The position numbers and the translations under genes are program-made. The notes below the pieces were generated by a model. It did no database searches and was not told the DNA's origin. It was given only the letters and a program-made list of their open reading frames with translations. From Bacteroidota bacterium (GTDB lineage Bacteria > Bacteroidota > Bacteroidia > Palsa-948), in the NCBI GenBank assembly GCA_016213405.1, contig JACRAM010000055.1, positions 1-50,828 of the forward strand: a DNA stretch of 50,828 bases, written 5' to 3'. Positions 16,992-48,758 of this stretch are shown here, piece by piece (within the stretch, counting starts at the first letter, position 1; each line of letters starts with the position of its first letter).

Positions 16992-17035
16992 TTTCAGGTT
17001 GTTTTATAAGATATCATCGTTGCTTTACATTTTAG

Positions 17036-17055
17036 GAGTGTACACTCTCAGTATA
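17036..17055. promoter_or_regulatory. Palindromic site, copy 1 (GAGTGTACACTCTCAGTATA)
   Basis: The 12-bp palindrome GAGTGTACACTC is followed by TCAGTATA. The same 20-nt string recurs at 17226-17245 in direct orientation. It sits 45 bp upstream of the ATG of the 240-aa gene. An operator-like dyad recurring in one intergenic region suggests binding by a dimeric regulator, but no cognate protein is identifiable. Confidence 0.5.
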
Positions 17056-17132
17056 TCTTCTCTTGCTCAGAACCTATAATCCCTTTGTCATGATCCATCA
17101 AACATTCTTTTCATGATAGAATCATTGTTTTA

Positions 17133-17140: not shown

Positions 17141-17220
17141 GACCTTTTGGCGACATAACGGCAGCATAGGTTATTATCATGGAAATACAATATTCTATTC
17201 TATAATCCAACGTTGATAAG

Positions 17221-17240
17221 CTGAGAGTGTACACTCTCAG
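17221..17240. promoter_or_regulatory. 20-bp perfect palindrome, copy 2
   Basis: CTGAGAGTGTACACTCTCAG equals its own reverse complement over 20 bp. It shares GAGTGTACACTCTCAG plus the following TATA with copy 1, about 190 bp away (roughly 18 helical turns). The 674-bp gap 16992-17665 holds these two sites, a -7-like box and the palindrome cluster described next; I see no convincing gene in it. Confidence 0.55.
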
Positions 17241-17360
17241 TATAGAAAACAACAGTACAATGACTAAAACCAGAAATACCATGTTGTGTTTCGAAGAAGT
17301 TTCTTTGCGAAGATGCGTTGTAAAGATGTTACGGAACGATGCAAGAAGATAATGATGTTA

Positions 17361-19330: not shown

Positions 19331-19370
19331 GAACCCCGTAGGATATTGGATTTTATCCAACGGGGTGAAC
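19331..19370. repeat. Family A repeat immediately upstream of the first TPR gene
   Basis: CCCCGTAGGATATTGG and TTTTATCCAACGGGGTGAAC form the unit. An open frame runs through it in phase with the TPR gene, but the signal peptide begins at the ATG at 19379, 9 nt after the repeat, so the repeat forms the 5' leader. Confidence 0.8.
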
Positions 19371-19378
19371 CCGTGAAA

Positions 19379-20800
19379 ATGCTCCGTGTTTTTTATATCC
19401 TGATTCTCTCTTCTTTCTTCTTTCATTTTTCTTCCGCGCAAAACCAGAATATTGATTCTCTCCTAAACCTAGTAAAAAAAGATAACGCAACTCCCTCCTC
19501 CCTCGTCTCTCGTCCCTCGTCCCTTTCTTCCGACACCAACAAAGTAAACCACCTCAATGCCCTCGCTTGGGAATATAAATACACCAATCCCGATTCCACT
19601 ATTCTCCTCGCTAAAGAAGCACTTGCGCTATGCGAGAAACTATCTTCTGTCTCCGAACTCCGAACTCCTGTCTCCAAACTAAAAGCAAACGCTTACGGTA
19701 CTTGCGGTGTGGGCTATTGGGTAAAAGGCGATTATCCGAACGCGCTTGAAAATTTTTTCAAAGCGCTGAAATTTGATGAAGAACAAAAAAATAAAAAAGG
19801 AATTGCAACACGCCTCGGCAACATCGGAGGTGTTTATTGGAATCAAGCCGATTATCCCAAGGCGCTGGATTATTATTTCAGGGCATTAAAAACATTTGAG
19901 GAACTTGGAGAGAAAGATAAAATTGCCACTGTGCTCGGCAACATCGGAGTTGTCTATTTCCGTCAAGCCGAAGCCAACGTTCATCCTGAGGAACGCAATC
20001 CTCTTTTCAAAAGGGTGCTGGAGTATTACTTCAGGGCATTGAAAATGAATGAAGAACTTGGCAATAAGAATAGAATCGCAACAGACCTCGGCAACATTGG
20101 CAATGTCTATCATGCCCAAACTGATTATCCCCGGGCGCTGAATTATTATTTCAGGGCATTGAAAATGGCGGAAGAACTCGGAGATAAAAATCGAATTGTA
20201 ATCTGGCTCGGCAATATCGGCTCACTTGATATTACAACCGGAAAATTTGCTGAAGCGGAAAAGTATCTCAAACAATCCGTTTTACTTGCAGAAGAAATCG
20301 GTTCTCTTGATGATTTAAAAGTAGGAAACCAATCCCTCAGCCAGCTTTACGACACTACGGGCAGATATCAATCAGCTCTTGAGCATTACAAAAAATACAT
20401 AGCCGTACGTGACAGTATCACTAACGATGAAAATACTAAGAAGCAAACACGCACGGAAATGAACTACGAGTTTGAAAAGAAAGAAGCAAAGGCAAAGGCA
20501 GAGGTTGAGGTTAAGGAAGCAGTAGCAGAAGCGGAAAGCAAAAAGCAAAAGATTGTTATATGGTCGGTGATGGCTGTATTGCTGTTAGTTGTAATCTTCG
20601 CAGTATTTATTTTCCGTGCACTGCGCATTACGCAAAAGCAAAAGCAACTCATCGAACAGCAAAAGAAAATTGTGGAGGAGAAGCAAAGCGAAATTCTCGC
20701 CAGCATCCGCTACGCGAAACGGATTCAGGATGCCATTCTGCCGAAGGAGAAGTATATTAATAAAACGCTTTACCGCCTCAAAGCCAAAATGCCGAAGTAA
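19379..20800 (+). CDS. TPR - transmembrane - coiled-coil protein A, phosphatase-less SpoIIE-type sensor
   Basis: 473 aa. Signal peptide MLRVFYILILSSFFFHFSSA; four or five TPRs (about residues 60-340, e.g. GNIGGVYWNQADYPKALDYY); a helical AKAEAEVKE-type stalk; one TM helix (~391-413); then a cytoplasmic coiled coil ending IRYAKRIQDAILP. In many Bacteroidota proteins this last motif links to a SpoIIE/PP2C phosphatase, but here the protein ends 18 residues later (KEKYINKTLYRLKAKMPK). The ATG at 19379 is chosen over upstream in-frame codons because it begins the signal peptide. Compared with protein C it has extra residues ATPSSLVSRPSSLSS (repeat DNA CTCGTCCCTCGTCCC) and SSVSELRTPVSK. First gene of a three-gene operon, 3-nt spacing. 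Confidence 0.88.
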   Translation: MLRVFYILILSSFFFHFSSAQNQNIDSLLNLVKKDNATPSSLVSRPSSLSSDTNKVNHLNALAWEYKYTNPDSTILLAKEALALCEKLSSVSELRTPVSKLKANAYGTCGVGYWVKGDYPNALENFFKALKFDEEQKNKKGIATRLGNIGGVYWNQADYPKALDYYFRALKTFEELGEKDKIATVLGNIGVVYFRQAEANVHPEERNPLFKRVLEYYFRALKMNEELGNKNRIATDLGNIGNVYHAQTDYPRALNYYFRALKMAEELGDKNRIVIWLGNIGSLDITTGKFAEAEKYLKQSVLLAEEIGSLDDLKVGNQSLSQLYDTTGRYQSALEHYKKYIAVRDSITNDENTKKQTRTEMNYEFEKKEAKAKAEVEVKEAVAEAESKKQKIVIWSVMAVLLLVVIFAVFIFRALRITQKQKQLIEQQKKIVEEKQSEILASIRYAKRIQDAILPKEKYINKTLYRLKAKMPK

Positions 20801-20803
20801 AAG

Positions 20804-22435
20804 ATGAAGAATAAAGTCTCAAGTCTCAAGTTCCACATTCCAAGTTCCAAGGAATACAAATCTTCTCTTGGGACTTGGTGCTTGGTGTTTGGGATTTGGT
20901 ACTTCTTCTTTTGCCAACTGCCAACTGCCTATTGCCAACTTTCTAAAGTGGACTCCCTCAATTCAATCATAAACAATTCTTCTTCGTCCGACACAGCTGT
21001 TGCTTCTGCTTATCTCAGCTTATCTGAAATATTATATTCCTCAAATCCCGACACGCTGATCCCGCTATGTAAAAGAATATTGAAAATTGTTGATGAAAAA
21101 ATCTCAGGAAGCAATCAGAAAGAGCGGCATTCCTTTCTTGTAGCAAAATCATCCGCGCTTAATAATATCGGATATGCGTATAATTTTCTGGGAGATATTT
21201 CAAAAGCGCTGGACTATTACCGGCAATCAATAAAAATAGATGAAGAATTGTCTGACAAACAGGGCATGGCTTCCACGCTGAATAACATAGGCGGCATTTA
21301 TGACAATCTGGGAGATATTACAAAGGCATTGGATTATTATCATAAGAGTTTAAAAATAAAAGAAACAATTCCTGACAAGCTTGGAATGGCCTATTCGTTT
21401 CAAAACATAGGAACGATTTACATCGGTCAGGGAGATACCGCAAACGCATTGGAATATTTTAACAAGAGTTTATCTTTAAGAGAAGAGATTTCAGACAAAC
21501 GAGGCATGGCGCAATCTCTGAACAACCTTGGCTACACCTATTATCATTCAGGAAATATTTCCAAAGCCATGGAATATTTTCAGAAAAGTATCTCCATAGA
21601 AGAAGAAATCCACAACAAGCGAGGCATTGCCAGTTCACTCAATAATATTGGAGGCATTTACCTGAATTTTGGTGACCCTTACTGTCAGCCCGCTGGAAGC
21701 AAAGCCTGCACACATCAAGGCATTGAAAAAGCATTTGAATATTATAAAAGGTCTTTGCAAATCAGGTTGGAAATTGCAGATAAAAAAGGAATAGCGCAAT
21801 CACTTCACAATGTGGGCGGGGTGTTTTTCAGGCAAGCAGCGTTGCAGGAAAAATTTTCGCTGAAGAAAGAACTTTACACATCAGCGCGCCATTATGCCGA
21901 CAGCTCCCTTCTGGTGAGCAAAGAACTGGGCTACCCCGAAATTATTCTAAGTTCTTCACGAATGCTTAGCAGCATAGATTCTGCACTGGGCAATTACAAG
22001 CTGGCGTTTGAATATTATAAACTTTTTATTCAAATGTCCGACAGCATAAAAAATACTGAAACACAAAAAGCCACTGTAAAAAAACAAATGCAATATGAGT
22101 TTGATAAAAAAGAAGCAGCCACAAAAGCAGAGAGCGATAAGCACGCGGCAGTAGCAGAAGCAGAGAGTAAAAAGCAAAAGATTGTTATATGGTCGGTGAT
22201 TGCTGTATTGTTGTTAATGATTGTGTTTGCCGGTTTTATCTTTCGTGCGCTTCGCATTACCCAAAAGCAAAAACAACTCATCGAACAGCAAAAGAAAATT
22301 GTGGAGGAGAAGCAAAGCGAAATTCTCGCCAGCATCCGCTACGCGAAACGCATTCAGGATGCCATTCTGCCCACGGAGAAATATATTCATAAAACCCTCG
22401 AACGGCTAAGAGCGAAAATGCCGAAAGACAATTAG
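20804..22435 (+). CDS. TPR - transmembrane - coiled-coil protein B, phosphatase-less SpoIIE-type sensor
   Basis: 543 aa. Residues ~22-46 are a signal-peptide-like hydrophobic stretch (SLGTWCLVFGIWYFFFCQLP... AYC) encoded by the family C repeat and an iterated CCAACTG word. About seven TPRs follow (residues ~120-400, e.g. NNIGGIYDNLGDITKALDYY). A TM helix lies at ~460-482, then a coiled coil and IRYAKRIQDAILPTEKYIHK, ending MPKDN with no PP2C domain. The insertion DPYCQPAGSKACTHQGIE, with two Cys, interrupts one TPR turn. The TPRs are predicted periplasmic and the coiled coil cytoplasmic, so it may pass a signal across the inner membrane. Starts 3 nt after gene A; 3 nt before the open frame of gene C. 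Confidence 0.88.
   Translation: MKNKVSSLKFHIPSSKEYKSSLGTWCLVFGIWYFFFCQLPTAYCQLSKVDSLNSIINNSSSSDTAVASAYLSLSEILYSSNPDTLIPLCKRILKIVDEKISGSNQKERHSFLVAKSSALNNIGYAYNFLGDISKALDYYRQSIKIDEELSDKQGMASTLNNIGGIYDNLGDITKALDYYHKSLKIKETIPDKLGMAYSFQNIGTIYIGQGDTANALEYFNKSLSLREEISDKRGMAQSLNNLGYTYYHSGNISKAMEYFQKSISIEEEIHNKRGIASSLNNIGGIYLNFGDPYCQPAGSKACTHQGIEKAFEYYKRSLQIRLEIADKKGIAQSLHNVGGVFFRQAALQEKFSLKKELYTSARHYADSSLLVSKELGYPEIILSSSRMLSSIDSALGNYKLAFEYYKLFIQMSDSIKNTETQKATVKKQMQYEFDKKEAATKAESDKHAAVAEAESKKQKIVIWSVIAVLLLMIVFAGFIFRALRITQKQKQLIEQQKKIVEEKQSEILASIRYAKRIQDAILPTEKYIHKTLERLRAKMPKDN
20817..20942. repeat. Family C repeat plus CCAACTG tandem word within the start of TPR gene B
   Basis: AAGTTCCACATTCCAAGTTC and its facing arm TTGGGACTTGGTGCTTGG (to ~20900) repeat the unit at 16173-16263. 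They are followed by GCCAACTGCCAACTGCCTAT (iterated 7-mer CCAACTG). The whole stretch is translated in phase as the leader and hydrophobic core of the signal peptide. Confidence 0.75.
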
Positions 22436-22437
22436 CA

Positions 22438-22598
22438 GATGAGTAAATGTGAAGATGTGCAGATGAAGAAAATAAATAAATACATACTGGCTTTCATTAG
22501 CATATCTGCAAATCAGCACATTCGCACATCCGCTTTCATCCGCACATTTGTTTTCATCAGCATATCCGCACATCTGCTCATCTACACATTTGCTTTTG
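22438..22598. repeat. Family D repeat (GCACATCTGC words) encoding the signal region of TPR gene C
   Basis: Iterated words such as GATGTGCAGATG, GCACATTCGCACATCCGC and GCACATCTGCTCATC fill the first ~160 bp. The left part (ATGTG) is complementary to the right part (CACAT), so the whole can fold back. A related string (GATGTGAAGATGTGCTGATA) lies at 35714-35757 in the kelch gene. Confidence 0.7.
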
Positions 22599-23941
22599 CT
22601 CAGCAGAACAAAATTGATTCTCTTTTAACATTGCTTAAAAAAGATAAGGAGGATACGAATAAGGTAAATCACTTAAATAATTTATCCCGCGAATACAGAT
22701 ACATTAACGCATTCGATTCTTCTCTTGCCTTAGCTAATAGCGCATTGAAACTGGCGAATGTTATTCTAACACTGAATGATAAGAACGGAATGAATCAAAC
22801 TGTTAAACAAACGGCTCAAAAAGGAATTGCCATTGCTTACAACAACATTGGGCTTGTTTATGATTACCATGGTGATTATCCCAATGCGCTGGATTATTAC
22901 ATTAAGGGGCTTAAGGTGGCTGAAGTATTAGAAAATAAAAACATCATGGCAGCCATTCTCGGAAATATTGGAAATGTTTATGATGCACAAGACGATTACA
23001 CCAAAGCACTTGACTATTATTTGAAGGCATTGAAAATCGCAGAAGAACTTGGAGATAAAAAAAGAATTGCAATCCAACTCGGCAATATCGGAAATGCCTA
23101 TAAAGAGCCAGCGAAAGCAGCAAGTGGTATAAAAGGCGCTAGCGATTCCTTATATAAAAAATCGCTGGATTATTATTTCAGGGCATTGAAAATAGATGAA
23201 GAGTTGGGCAATAAAAACGGAATAGCAAGACATCTTGGCAACATCGGACTTACCTATGATTATCAAGGTAATTATCCTAAAGCGCTGGACTATTGTTTCA
23301 AGGCACTGAAAATAACGGAAGAATTGGGAAATAAAAATGACATTGCAGCATGGCTCGGCAACATAGGAGCGATTTATACTAGAACTGGAAACTATAAAGA
23401 AGCAGAGTTTTACCTTAAAAGAGCTATTTCCCTTGATGACAGTATTGGCTCAATGAATGAATCCAGACAATTTGAAGAATACCTCTCTCAACTTTACGAT
23501 ACCACCGGCAGATACCAACTTGCTCTGGAGCATTACAAAAAAGCAATGGCGTTAAAAGACACTTTGTTCAGCGAGGAGAAGAACAAAGAAATCACCCGCA
23601 AAGAAATGACTTACGAGTTTGAGAAGAAAGCAGCAGCAGCAAAAGCCGAAGCGGATAAACAAGCTGCCGTAGCAGAAGCAGAAAGCAAAAAGCAAAAGAT
23701 TGTTATATGGTCAGTGATTGCTGTATTGCTGTTAGTGATTGTGTTTGCCGGTTTTATCTTTCGTGCGCTGCGCATCACGCAAAAACAAAAGCGTATTATA
23801 GAACAGCAAAAGAAAATAGTAGAAGAGAAGCAAAGCGAAATCCTCGCCAGCATCCGCTATGCGAAACGCATTCAGGATACAATATTGCCCACGGAGAAAT
23901 ATATTGATAAAACGCTGAAACGACTGATGAAAAATAATTAG
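22463..23941 (+). CDS. TPR - transmembrane - coiled-coil protein C, phosphatase-less SpoIIE-type sensor
   Basis: 492 aa from the ATG at 22463 (MKKINKYILAFISISAN); an upstream ATG at 22439 is in frame. The region up to AFAQQNKIDSLL is a long, odd signal segment built from family D repeat DNA (e.g. FIRTFVFISISAHLLIYTFA). About five TPRs follow (YNNIGLVYDYHGDYPNALDY; GNIGNVYDAQDDYTKALDYY). A stalk rich in KAEA leads to a TM helix at ~413-435 and a coiled coil with IRYAKRIQDTILPTEKYIDK; the protein stops at LKRLMKNN without a phosphatase domain. The TM-coiled-coil DNA is almost identical to genes A and B while the TPRs differ, implying different ligands and a common output. Last gene of the trio; convergent with siaC 37 bp away. 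Confidence 0.88.
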   Translation: MKKINKYILAFISISANQHIRTSAFIRTFVFISISAHLLIYTFAFAQQNKIDSLLTLLKKDKEDTNKVNHLNNLSREYRYINAFDSSLALANSALKLANVILTLNDKNGMNQTVKQTAQKGIAIAYNNIGLVYDYHGDYPNALDYYIKGLKVAEVLENKNIMAAILGNIGNVYDAQDDYTKALDYYLKALKIAEELGDKKRIAIQLGNIGNAYKEPAKAASGIKGASDSLYKKSLDYYFRALKIDEELGNKNGIARHLGNIGLTYDYQGNYPKALDYCFKALKITEELGNKNDIAAWLGNIGAIYTRTGNYKEAEFYLKRAISLDDSIGSMNESRQFEEYLSQLYDTTGRYQLALEHYKKAMALKDTLFSEEKNKEITRKEMTYEFEKKAAAAKAEADKQAAVAEAESKKQKIVIWSVIAVLLLVIVFAGFIFRALRITQKQKRIIEQQKKIVEEKQSEILASIRYAKRIQDTILPTEKYIDKTLKRLMKNN

Positions 23942-35429: not shown

Positions 35430-35611
35430 GGTTATCCTCTAAAAACTCATGAACCCCGTAGGATACTTATCCAACGGGGTGAACAATAGAATAATTGAAC
35501 AATAGAACAACGAATAGCGAAGTAAAATGCACACTACAGAACAAATCCGATGTTTCCTTACTTCTTTATTCGTTATTCAAATGTTCAAATGTTCGTTATT
35601 CGAGATGCCCT
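35430..35611. repeat. Composite repeat G, copy 1
   Basis: Order: CCTCTAAAAACTCATGAACC, family A unit (35451-35483), GAACAATAGAATAATTGAAC, a fold-back core with arms AACGAATAGCGAAGTAA and TTACTTCTTTATTCGTT, then words of ATTCAAATGTTCAAATGTTC and TTCGAGATGCCC. An inverted copy lies at 48564-48758; over the ~128 bp after the family A unit the two differ at only about six positions. It fills the gap between PorE-like gene 1 and the kelch gene. Confidence 0.88.
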
Positions 35612-37767: not shown

Positions 37768-40700
37768 ATGAAAAAAAGTAAAAGCCCATCCCCCACCCTT
37801 CCCAAAGGGAAGGGAGTGTGTAGATGTTTTCTTCCCCCCTTCGGAATAGTTGGAATAAGTTTCTTATTTTTCTTTCTCCCCTTCCTTTGGAAGGGGGCGG
37901 GGGTAGGCAGTCAGCCCATCTCCAAAGGGCAGTTCAAGCAATACTTCACGCAGGGCAACCTGATGATGCTCGATAATTTTTACGACACCGCCTGCAAAAC
38001 TTTTCTTGCCCTCAACAAAACCGATGCATCCAACGCAAACGTAAATTATAAAATAGGAATTTGCTACCTGCATCTTCCGGCAGACAAGCTCAAATCAATT
38101 GCCTATCTTGAAAACGCCATCAAGCAAACATCGGGCTCTTACCGCGAAGACGACCCATCGGAAAAAAATGCTCCTGAAGATGCCCTGTATTATCTCGGGC
38201 AGGCATACCATTACGCCTATCGCTTTGACGAAGCCCTGGTGCAGTTTCAAAAGTTCCGCGATATTGTTGGCAAGTGGAATCTGAATCTGGTAAAAGAAAT
38301 TGACCATTGGATGGATGCCAGCAAAAACGCAAAAGAACTTACCGCCAAACCCGTTGAATGCACCATCACCAATCTGGGCGACAGCGTGAACTGCGAGTTT
38401 GCCGATTACAGCCCCGTGATTACTGCCGATGAATCCATGCTGTGCTTTACCTCGCGCAGAGAAGGAACGGGCGGACCCGATAACAAAACCATTGATGATG
38501 ATTTTTTTGAAGACATTTTTGTTTGCACCCGCGGTGAATACGGAACCTGGAGCAAAGCAAAAGGAATCAGCCGCACCATCAATACCGATGGCAACGAAGC
38601 CACCATCGGGCTTTCTGCTGACGGGCAGCAACTCTATGTTTACCGCGATGATATGGGAGACGGCAATATTTACATCAGCAAACTGGATGGAGATTACTGG
38701 AACGCTCCCTACAAAATGGATGCAAGCAATGTGAACAGCCCCAGTTGGGAACCCAGTGCCTGCATCAGCGCAGATGGAAACACCATGTATTTTGTAAGCA
38801 ACCGCGCAGGCGGACTGGGCGGCAGAGATATTTATCAGTGCCACCGTTTGCCCAACCGTTCATGGAGCGCGCCTGAAAACCTGGGACCCACCATCAACAC
38901 GCCTTACGATGAAGATGCTCCGTTCATTCACCCCGATGGAATCACTTTCTTTTTCAGTTCAACCGGGCATAACTCAATGGGCGGGTTTGATATTTTTTAT
39001 TCCACCAAAGTGGCAAACAATGTTTGGACTGCTCCCATCAACATGGGCTACCCCATTAACACCACCGATGACGATATTTATTTTGTGGCGTCATCAGACG
39101 GCAGGCGCGCCTACTATGCTTCGTTCCGCCCCGAAGGAAAAGGAGAAAAAGATATTTACATGGTGAGCATGCCAAAACCATTTGTAAAATCAGTAGCCAT
39201 TCTTGTTGGATGGCTGAAGAACCGCGATGGCTCTCCCATTCCAAAATATTCTTCGGTTACTGTAAAATCAAAAAAAGGAGAAATCAATTCAAGCAAACCC
39301 AACGAAGCTACAGGCAAATTTGTTCAGTCGCTTTTTCCGGGGCAGGAATATGAAATAACCATTGAAACCAATGGCAATAAAGTGTTCACTGATAAATTTT
39401 TTCTTCCCGAAGACAGTTCGTATCAAAGCTTAGGAAGAGGATTTTTTCAGCGCACCATTTATCTGGGCGATACCGCCCGCCTGTTCTCCATGAATAAAGT
39501 GAAAGACACTACTTCCCGCATACAGATGGTGCCGATGGATGGAAAAATACTTCTCAGTCAGAATGCAAATGATGCGGCTGCGAATGTTACCATTCAGATG
39601 TTAAACGCTCAGGGAAACATTATTGCATCAACCGTTACCGACAGCAAAGGAAATTTCAAGTTTCAAAATATTCCGTCTAATCAGAAGTACATAATAAAAA
39701 TTGATGAGAACGATGGAATATTAAAAACACATAACCAGTTTTACCTTGCCAATACCGATGGAAAAGTAATTATGCCTTCTGCTCAGGAAGGAAAATTCTT
39801 TCTTTTCAAAAATGTTTCTCCTGATATAAACAGGCTAAACACTGTTGAAACAAAAGACACCACGCTGGCGCTTGCTTCCATGCAGGGAAAGATTGCTCAA
39901 AGCGAAGACGGAAAGCAGGCGGCAGGCAAAGTCAGAATTAACCTGATGGATAATAAAGGAAAAATCATTCAGTCCAAAACCACCGATAAGTCAGGGCGCT
40001 TTACGTTTGAAAATATTCCGGGCGCCAGCAACTATACTATTTCCATAGACGAAAAAAATCCTTCCCTGACAAACAAGGACCGTCTGTTTCTGCTTAACCA
40101 GAAAGAAGAAATAATAAAAAAAGTTGCCAAGAACGGAGACTACTTTGTTTTTGAAAACCTGCCGGTTGATTTGAACAGACTGGGCGCCATTAATACCACA
40201 GACGAATCTAAATTAATTGCCATGAACGGAAAATTGCTCAGAAGCAATAATCCGGACGATGGAATAGGCAATCTGAAGATTGACCTTGTTGACAGCAAAG
40301 GAAAACTCATTGAAAAGACCACCACCGATGCTTCCGGAAAATTCAGATTTGAAAAATTATCAGCAGATAAAAACTATACCATCAAGCTGAACGAAAACGA
40401 TTCGCTTCTTTCCTCGCTTAAAAAAGTTTATCTGGCAAATGAAGCGGGCAAAGTAGTGAAGGTGATTGACATTGGCAGGAAGACAATTGTTTTCAAAAAC
40501 CTTCCGGCAGATTTAATGCAACTGGCTGAGCTGAAAGATGTGTTTGTCACTTCATTTAATAAAGACACGGTTACTGCCATTGTGCACAAAAACGTGATGT
40601 ACCCCGGTGATGAAAAATTTGATTTCGTTGTTTACTTCCCCTATAACAAAAAAGAAATTGATATTTCCATCGGCTCTTTCCTCTCGCTCATGGAAAAAGT

Positions 40701-42966: not shown

Positions 42967-44040
42967 TTACTGCTTCCTGGAATAAAATTCAGAAAAGTTA
43001 GTACTGATGGTAAAATGATTGGGTCCGCCAGCCATGTGGTATTTTGCATAGCCATAGCTCAGATTAAATTTATAAACCTTCAAACCAAATCCAAAAGAAA
43101 ATCCAACAATACCGGGATGCGCTTCTAATTTTAATTCCTGCCTTCGCTGATAATTATATCCAACGCGAAGGTTGAAATTTTTTGTGAGCAATACTTCTCC
43201 ACCCACAATAATATGACGCCCCAGTTTGTCTGCGAATTTACTGATTCCGCTCTTTTTAATTGTTTCAGATGTAATGGGATCAACAGACAAAATGGTTGGG
43301 TCAGTATAAGTCAAATCCCACTTTTCCAGGTGGGTAGCGGTACTATTAATCCTGAACGGTGCGTGAGTGATTTTCTTAGAGAATCCAAGCTGAATTTCAA
43401 AAGGCATAGGTTCGCGCACTTCGTTATATTTTTTCCATTGCATGCCAATGTTTTTTATAACCAGCGCGGTTGAGTAAAGATGGCGGCTGTTATTGTATAT
43501 GCCCCCGATGTCCAGAGCGTTTCCGAAGGAAGTATAATCGGCAAGTTTTGAGTAAATCGTTTTCAATGTTCCGCCAACGGCAAATGCAGAATCAATCGGA
43601 CGCGAATAGCCAAGATTGAAAGCGTATTCAGCCGCGGTAAACTGCCCGGTGATTTCTCCGGTGACTGAGGCAGCAGTAAAATTTCCATAGTCGAGATATT
43701 GTATTCCAGCGCTGAAGTTTCCTACATTTTTATACTTGCGTGCATAGGCAGCGTATCCATAACGAATATCGGTGAAGTAATCAATGTAACTAAGTGCAAG
43801 GTTATTGTGCATGGTGCTGTCAAGCAATGATGGATTCTGAAAGGAAAGGTTTAGGTCGTTATCTTTTACTGAAATCAAAGTGCCACCAAGCGAAGCAACA
43901 CGAGCCGGAACAGACAGGTTTAAGAATTCATACGTATTGTTGCCGCCAGTTTGGGCAAAGATGCCCATCCCCGACCCTTCCCAAAGGGAAGGGAGAACTG
44001 TTATCGCACAACAATAAAGCAAATAAAATGATGATTTCAT
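42967..44040 (-). CDS. porQ: Type IX secretion system protein PorQ
   Basis: 357 aa. An outer-membrane beta-barrel of the PorV/PorQ (FadL-like) group; with PorU, PorV and PorZ it forms the T9SS attachment complex. Family signatures: NTYEFLNLSVPARVASLGGT, NDLNLSFQNPSLLD, LALSYIDYFTDIRYGYAAYA, AGIQYLDYGNF and FGFGLKVYKFNLSYGYAKYH near the C-terminus. The N-terminal signal region (LLYCCAITVLPSLWEGSGMG) is partly encoded by a family B repeat at 43962-43996. It leads the porQ-cmk operon. The presence of PorQ agrees with the many T9SS sorting domains in the window. Confidence 0.92.
   Translation of the reverse strand: MKSSFYLLYCCAITVLPSLWEGSGMGIFAQTGGNNTYEFLNLSVPARVASLGGTLISVKDNDLNLSFQNPSLLDSTMHNNLALSYIDYFTDIRYGYAAYARKYKNVGNFSAGIQYLDYGNFTAASVTGEITGQFTAAEYAFNLGYSRPIDSAFAVGGTLKTIYSKLADYTSFGNALDIGGIYNNSRHLYSTALVIKNIGMQWKKYNEVREPMPFEIQLGFSKKITHAPFRINSTATHLEKWDLTYTDPTILSVDPITSETIKKSGISKFADKLGRHIIVGGEVLLTKNFNLRVGYNYQRRQELKLEAHPGIVGFSFGFGLKVYKFNLSYGYAKYHMAGGPNHFTISTNFSEFYSRKQ
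43962..43996. repeat. Family B repeat in the porQ signal-peptide region
   Basis: ACCCTTCCCAAAGGGAAGGG is a near-perfect inverted repeat, preceded by GCCCATCCCCG. On the minus strand it encodes VLPSLWEGSGMG, between the hydrophobic LLYCCAIT and the cleavage-site region IFAQ. Confidence 0.75.
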
Positions 44041-47427: not shown

Positions 47428-47479
47428 AGAATTGATTGTGGTTGTGTTCTTGATGTTACAAACGCGCGCCAGATGGGGT

Positions 47480-47731
47480 AAACCAGAATAGTGTTTTACT
47501 AAACCAGAATAGTATTTTACTAAACCTGAATAGTATTTCACTGAATCAGAATAGTATTTCACTAAACCAGAATAGTGTTTTACTAAACCAGAATAGAGTT
47601 TCACTAAACCAGAATAGTATTTCACTAAACCAGAATAGTGTTTTACTAAACCAGAATAGTATTTCACTAAACCAGAATAGTGTTTCACTAAACCAGAATA
47701 GTATTTCACTAAACCAGAATAGTGTTTTTGA
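47480..47731. repeat. Perfectly phased 21-bp tandem array, 12 units
   Basis: Twelve consecutive units of AAACCAGAATAGTGTTTTAC plus T start every 21 bp from 47480 to 47731 (47480 + 11 x 21 = 47711, the last unit). Variation is limited to positions such as GTG/GTA and TTTTAC/TTTCAC. Each unit contains the dyad ACTA-N8-TAGT when the junction is included. 21 bp is two helical turns, so all units face the same side. It lies in the 374-bp gap between tamL and the convergent 240-aa gene; read on the minus strand it encodes a YYSGLVK heptad, but I do not call a gene. Confidence 0.92.
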
Positions 47732-48563: not shown

Positions 48564-48758
48564 AGGGCATCTCGAATAACGAACATTTGAACATTTGAAT
48601 AACGAATGAAGAAGTAAGGAAACATCGTATTTGTTCTGTATTCTGCATTTTACTTCGCTATTCGTTGTTCTATTGTTCAATTATTCTATTGTTCACCCCG
48701 TAGGATTCACCCCGTTGGAAATTCTTCCTACGGGGTTCATGAGTTTTTAGAGGTTCCC
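48564..48758. repeat. Composite repeat G, copy 2 (inverted relative to copy 1)
   Basis: Runs from GGGCATCTCGAATAACGAAC to GAGTTTTTAGAGGTTCCC. Its core and words match 35430-35611 in reverse orientation with about six mismatches over ~128 bp. The family A part is longer here (CCCCGTAGGATTCACCCCGT plus TGGAA ... CCTACGGGG). It fills the gap between the 240-aa protein and the S74 protein gene. Confidence 0.88.

Follow-up and report, generated by a model that had tools for sequence, protein, structure and literature searches.

Dispersed and heptanucleotide repeats in signal peptides of a Bacteroidota genus: in-frame enrichment and orientation sorted by the encoded peptide

In this work, we found that repeat DNA is enriched in the signal peptides (SPs) of a genome from an uncultured Bacteroidota genus, that it lies there in frame and in an orientation sorted by the peptide it encodes, and that conserved mature N-termini are preceded by different repeats in different species. 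Plain tolerance is not the whole story, since period-7 tandem tracts reach a higher density in SPs than between genes and their orientation follows the encoded peptide. In type IX C-terminal domains, which constitute a second export signal, the same tracts are enriched about 10-fold. We consider it probable that SPs are permissive slots colonised repeatedly by repeats and filtered by the encoded peptide, which then acts as the signal.

Materials and methods

The window, that is, the whole stretch of DNA analysed (50,828 nucleotides), is contig C55 of a 3.65 Mb metagenome-assembled genome (MAG) of 127 contigs, and the genome-wide test sample covered 1.63 Mb of this MAG (45%) as well as parts of two congeners. 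Genes were called by hexamer score using a home-made caller, and SPs by home-made, repeat-blind rules consisting of a basic n-region, a hydrophobic window, and a small residue followed by Q, or a lipobox. From the 1.63 Mb, 330 SPs were called in 1328 genes, totalling ~24 kb or 1.5% of the scanned sequence; the false-call rate of nearly identical rules was 2.9% of mid-protein controls. Period-7 densities were counted with up to 2 mismatches in 16 and are given per 100 kb, and type IX C-terminal sorting domains were located by a PNP motif near the C-terminus.

Results

Signal peptides of five exported proteins

The initial annotation had placed repeats in the SPs of five exported proteins, namely TPR proteins A, B and C, PorQ and PorE-like protein 2; reading and translating the window, we found them in B, C, PorQ and PorE-like 2, and not in protein A. 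Pfam classed A, B and C with the TPR proteins and PorE-like 2 with the PD40-repeat proteins; no Pfam match was obtained for PorQ, whose closest named matches came from groundwater Bacteroidetes MAGs. All five SPs end X/Q (the slash marks the predicted cleavage) and, according to the SP caller and the translations, display the Q-rule layout of basic n-region, hydrophobic core, and small residue followed by Q. The features are the following:

19331..19369, plus strand: family A hairpin repeat upstream of protein A, outside its SP
19379..19438, plus strand: ordinary SP of protein A, MLRVFYILILSSFFFHFSSA/Q
19491..19525, plus strand: TCCCTCG heptad tract in the mature N-terminus of protein A, TPSSLVSRPSSLS, hydrophilic orientation
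20804-22435: gene of TPR protein B, SP MKNKVSSLKFHIPSSKEYKSSLGTWCLVFGIWYFFFCQLPTAYC/Q
20804..20935, plus strand: SP of TPR protein B, almost wholly repeat-encoded in translation, predicted cleavage C/Q at 20935/20936
20814..20852, plus strand: family C heptad arm (AAGTTCC words), B n-region, encoding polar basic VSSLKFHIPSSK
20867..20905, plus strand: inverted family C arm (CTTGGGA words), B h-region, encoding LGTWCLVFGIWYF
20911..20940, plus strand: CCAACTG heptad tract, B c-region, encoding CQLPTAYC/QL and giving the cleavage site and the +1 glutamine
22439-23941: gene of TPR protein C, SP MKKINKYILAFISISANQHIRTSAFIRTFVFISISAHLLIYTFAFA/QQN
22463..22600 (or from ATG 22439), plus strand: SP of TPR protein C, with GCACATCTGC-type (family E) words throughout 22500-22600
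37768..37911, plus strand: SP of PorE-like protein 2, mature QPISKGQF conserved in congeners
37784..37816, plus strand: forward family B arm, PorE-like 2 n-region, encoding SPSPTLPKGKG
37876..37908, minus strand: inverted family B arm, PorE-like 2 h/c-region, encoding LPFLWKGAGVG
43954..44040, minus strand: SP of PorQ, MKSSFYLLYCCAITVLPSLWEGSGMGIFA/Q
43963..43995, plus strand: family B unit inside the PorQ SP, encoding LPSLWEGSGMG, 97% identical to 37784-37816

Protein B is the most striking of the five, with a family C arm, an inverted family C arm and CCAACTG words in succession, and its mature start QLSKVDSLN resembles the Q..IDSLL start of paralogues A, C, C88 and others. The view that the N-terminal hydrophobic segments of B and C consist almost wholly of repeat DNA is borne out by translation for both proteins, as is the presence of family B repeats inside or around the SP cores of PorQ and PorE-like 2. 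In PorE-like 2, the hydrophobic core sits between an inverted pair of family B arms, and the minus-strand reading of the PorQ unit corresponds to the c-region orientation. Conversely, the family A unit described as the leader of protein A had to be reassigned: this hairpin repeat stops before ATG 19379, with an ordinary SP downstream, and protein A is the only one of the five for which the start lies downstream of the repeat.

Other repeats were observed in the window. A 21-bp tandem array of ~12 copies (TAAACCAGAATAGTATTTCAC; 21 = 3 x 7) lies between convergent genes at 47479-47727; an inverted duplication of ~190 bp (143 bp at 97%) carrying family A hairpins occupies 35436-35611 and 48564-48753, 13 kb apart; and an inverted pair of GTGTACACTCTCAGTATA motifs (17019-17057 and 17215-17253) precedes a SprB-repeat protein in a region with few genes.

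Genome-wide distribution of the repeats

A tandem-period scan of the 1.63 Mb revealed 97 strict period-7 tracts, whereas none of the other periods between 4 and 13 had more than 8 (range, 0-8), so that period 7 is the lone outlier besides its own multiples; 72 different canonical words are represented. SPs, with 1.5% of the sequence, hold 23 of these 97 strict tracts. The density of period-7 tracts per 100 kb was 140 in SPs (34 tracts in 24 kb), 34 in intergenic DNA and 5.9 in gene bodies, i.e., 24 times the gene-body density and 4 times the intergenic one (SP versus intergenic, P = 2e-9). The first 30 codons of non-SP genes displayed a density of 10 and the last 30 codons one of 2.5; in the 30 codons following the cleavage site it was again 10, and the excess is therefore sharply bounded by that site. 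The N-termini of non-SP genes show hardly any enrichment, which led us to discard a general effect of 5' ends. Chance arising from a biased SP composition was also rejected, as the enrichment is confined to period 7, with just 0-2 tracts in SPs for each of the other periods from 3 to 13 in the 1.63 Mb.

Dispersed k-mer families had densities per 100 kb of 238 (SPs), 287 (intergenic DNA) and 32 (gene bodies). Altogether, 69 of the 330 SPs, about one in five, contain repeat DNA. The 16-base core of family B, allowing at most 1 mismatch, matched the genome at 61 forward and 61 reverse sites, with none for a reversed-pattern control. The genome also holds 8 Y1_Tnp matches; in the search for a RAYT link of family B, words of this family were near only one of the four Y1 loci examined, which does not convincingly tie a mobilising enzyme to the repeats.

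The proposal that SPs are tolerated landing sites for repeats is thus backed by an SP enrichment in two species, found both in the 45% of the genome scanned and in the second species described below.

Strand choice and encoded peptides

Words occur in both directions, although non-randomly. The coding strand was the more hydrophobic one in 32 of 34 SP tracts versus 24 of 71 gene-body tracts (hydropathy difference, P = 2e-10). For SPs, part of this sorting follows from the hydrophobic window required by the caller; the hydrophilic bias of the body tracts and the polarity of family B are unaffected by this requirement. Body tracts commonly encode polar stretches such as PSTINHQ, PSPKSQV or LPTPNSQ, and within the SPs of three species the hydrophobic strand was used in 42 of 45 h/c parts versus 6 of 10 n-parts.

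Family B arms were also sorted: all 12 in the second half of SPs are inverted and none forward, whereas the first half has 4 forward arms and a single inverted one (P = 0.002). Elsewhere, the counts were 19 inverted and 28 forward in other coding DNA, and 22 inverted and 23 forward in intergenic DNA. The inverted arm is used in all three reading frames, encoding FSLPFGKGWGWA, LPSLWEGSGMG and SPFPWGRVGDG.

Type IX C-terminal domains and other coding sites

Type IX C-terminal domains contained 51 tracts per 100 kb, compared with 5.1 in the gene body (P = 5e-8), and 96 per 100 kb in the second species; of 43 family E elements, 18 are located in such domains. The following domains have GCACATCTGC-type inverted word pairs in common with the SP of protein C:

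C116:129377-129477 (L014): type IX C-terminal domain with GCACATCTGC-type pairs
C100:54175-54275 (L047): type IX C-terminal domain with GCACATCTGC-type pairs
C54:13658-13772 (L051): type IX C-terminal domain with GCACATCTGC-type pairs

Tracts also occur in loops of putative housekeeping enzymes. An in-frame heptad tract, a family C inverted pair, was observed in an RnpA-like reading at C125:66759-67280 (L027), and another in-frame heptad tract lies inside a putative leucyl-tRNA synthetase at C84:12972-13003 (L071).

Congeners and paralogues

Among six congeners, PorQ keeps the mature start QxGG, with a variable SP. It is built from family B in the genome studied here; G005 has a decayed B-like stretch at this place, G003 another inverted repeat and G006 a TGAGCGAAGTCGAA-like remnant, and the SPs of the remaining congeners are plain. 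Likewise, the SP of PorE-like 2 carries B-like fragments in two congeners and a GAGCGAAGTCGAAGAA repeat in G006, and the TPR paralogues share the Q..IDSLL start after SPs that are plain or built from other words. In G006, a further dispersed repeat, CATTCTGAGCGAAGTCGAAGAATC, was observed at the SP c-region of loci L085 and L159.

The initial annotation had also suggested that repeats can create new export signals. The almost wholly repeat-encoded signals of B and C agree with this proposal, and the ordinary signals of some paralogues and orthologues speak against it; exported relatives with an ordinary signal at the same place indicate that repeats replace or rebuild an existing one.

The enrichment was also found in the second species, G006, where a first sample gave 134 tracts per 100 kb in SPs, 4.4 in gene bodies and 30 in intergenic DNA, and a larger one gave 178 in SPs and 19 in intergenic DNA; in G001, 3 tracts were found in 3.1 kb of SP. 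A tendency of the same genes to carry tracts in both species (P = 6e-4 in the first sample, only P = 0.04 in the larger one) is not leaned on here. Compared with congeners, several body tracts are in-frame insertions opposite gaps in the orthologue, as observed in putative TruA-like and GMP-synthase-like proteins, and QLQTPNSKLHTP and LLTPNSQL are among the peptides facing gaps; other body tracts face a different word at the same spot or align without a gap. In 80 loci (1.27 Mb) from other Bacteroidia, 32 of 39 period-7 tracts were intergenic and 1 was in an SP, and G026, a distantly related member of the class, had no SP excess of period-7 tracts. The spread of repeats into coding DNA therefore appears to characterise this genus or its close relatives.

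Discussion

According to the reading that we consider probable, repeats of two kinds would keep entering permissive slots, which would comprise SPs, type IX C-terminal domains and some protein loops; one kind is palindromic and dispersed, with families A and B among others, and the other consists of tandem tracts of period 7 with many different words. A copy would survive in a gene only when in frame and when its peptide fits the place, and such a filter would account for h-regions having the hydrophobic strand, n-regions and loops the polar one, and c-regions the inverted family B arm. The repeat-encoded peptide would then be a working export signal, cut at the X/Q usual in the phylum. The pattern suggests selection on the peptide rather than biased insertion, and the repeat-encoded signals probably work in export.

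A strictly neutral tolerance, in which an in-frame insert is harmless in an SP and no repeat peptide aids export, would agree with SPs being variable and removed, and with the dispersed families being about equally dense in SPs and intergenic DNA. Nevertheless, we regard it as rather unlikely, given the hydrophobic strand in 32/34 SP tracts, the hydrophobic cores of B, C and many other proteins that are largely repeat, and heptad tracts above the intergenic density in SPs. Permissiveness alone seems insufficient for the latter, and our guess is slower decay under selection; the heptad excess could equally reflect local birth by slippage. Such local birth, where replication slippage in 7-nt steps makes tracts inside SP genes and selection for hydrophobicity keeps them, concerns the heptad tracts only and is compatible with colonisation of permissive slots; we hold it as a tentative possibility. 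Period 7 is a specific signal comprising 72 canonical units, orthologous SPs that both have tracts have different words, and heptanucleotides are reported to be the most abundant 5-11 nt repeat class in most genomes examined, with a proposed origin in polymerase slippage (PMC4679880). However, a single 7-bp step breaks the frame, making the intermediates null alleles. The same words recur at numerous sites and in either orientation, slippage is not enough to account for inverted arm pairs, and family B would be left unexplained.

The usual role of out-of-frame tandem repeats is phase variation. The heptad tracts might accordingly act as switches, the gain or loss of one 7-bp unit shifting the frame and turning a secreted protein off; the unit length is no multiple of 3, the site is near the start of secreted-protein genes, and other bacteria use repeat-number switches (PMC2651432, PMC8262952). 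This role is very improbable here, as 27 SP tracts are in frame and none of the 52 tested tracts near non-SP gene starts revealed an out-of-frame (off-state) SP (control, 4/951); in addition, the tracts are short (3-6 imperfect units) and some are in loops of putative housekeeping enzymes. It might also be argued that the repeats lie in untranslated leaders with true starts downstream, an annotation artefact which is true for protein A, and coding-potential scores alone place starts downstream of several repeats. As a general explanation it is extremely unlikely: a conserved mature N-terminus with a +1 Q directly follows the repeats, [ASGC]Q is found within 15 residues after 28 of 61 5' tracts versus a background of 13%, and downstream starts would strip exported Por and TPR proteins of any signal.

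The colonisation of permissive slots proposed here can be compared with several known systems. Rickettsia palindromic elements (RPE) measure 105-146 bp and have been reported in 19 reading frames (Ogata et al., 2000, reviewed in PMC2229807). They resemble the present repeats in being small, dispersed, intergenic and in frame within conserved protein genes, and the congener alignments revealed in-frame insertion in conserved genes opposite gaps in orthologues. They differ in that the words described here measure ~20-45 bp, belong to many families, concentrate in export signals and are sorted by orientation; no 105-146 bp element of RPE type, with terminal inverted repeats and a long hairpin, was found among these ~20-45 bp units, and inverted arm pairs occur only in some family B and C copies. 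The Yersinia YPAL/RU-2 repeat, a mobile 168-bp element, partly forms a predicted SP in YPO1552 (Delihas, 2007; PMC2229807); that case is a single locus, whereas here 69/330 scanned SPs and several unrelated repeat families are involved. With REP/REPIN sequences, the family B core shares the trait of a short palindromic repeat in high copy. Like the heptanucleotide class, which is sporadic across phyla including some Bacteroidetes (PMC4679880), the tracts consist of few copies of period-7 tandem words, with an exact 7-nt period above others. In contrast, the TAACTGA arrays of Beggiatoaceae consist of one word and are mostly intergenic, just upstream of starts (PMC4679880); here ~70 words occur in coding DNA and are densest in SPs. 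The X/Q ending common to all five SPs is that of Bacteroidetes Q-rule SPs (PMC10653852), a rule that says nothing on repeat DNA. In the open-licence literature, YPAL was the only case of repeats in bacterial SPs that we found, and we came across no description of repeats clustering in export signals or being sorted by strand. The scale and the sorting appear to be new, with RPE and YPAL as single precedents.

In annotation, these observations constitute a warning, as gene finders that avoid repeat-like DNA will truncate true SPs; starts chosen by coding score cut off the SPs of protein B, PorQ and PorE-like 2.

Coding repeats have so far been regarded as rare selfish insertions tolerated by proteins; here they gather in both export signals, in the fitting orientation, and differ between close species at one slot. 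We put forward only tentatively that export signals in this genus draw continually on repeat DNA as their raw material, with N- and C-terminal signals rebuilt repeatedly, possibly giving some proteins their first export signal. Heptad words and inverted palindromic pairs would then furnish n-, h- and c-regions in finished form; in an inverted pair, a basic arm is followed by a hydrophobic or small-residue arm. Taken together, these repeats amount to a natural experiment that bears on the range of peptides able to act as SPs and on the turnover of targeting signals.
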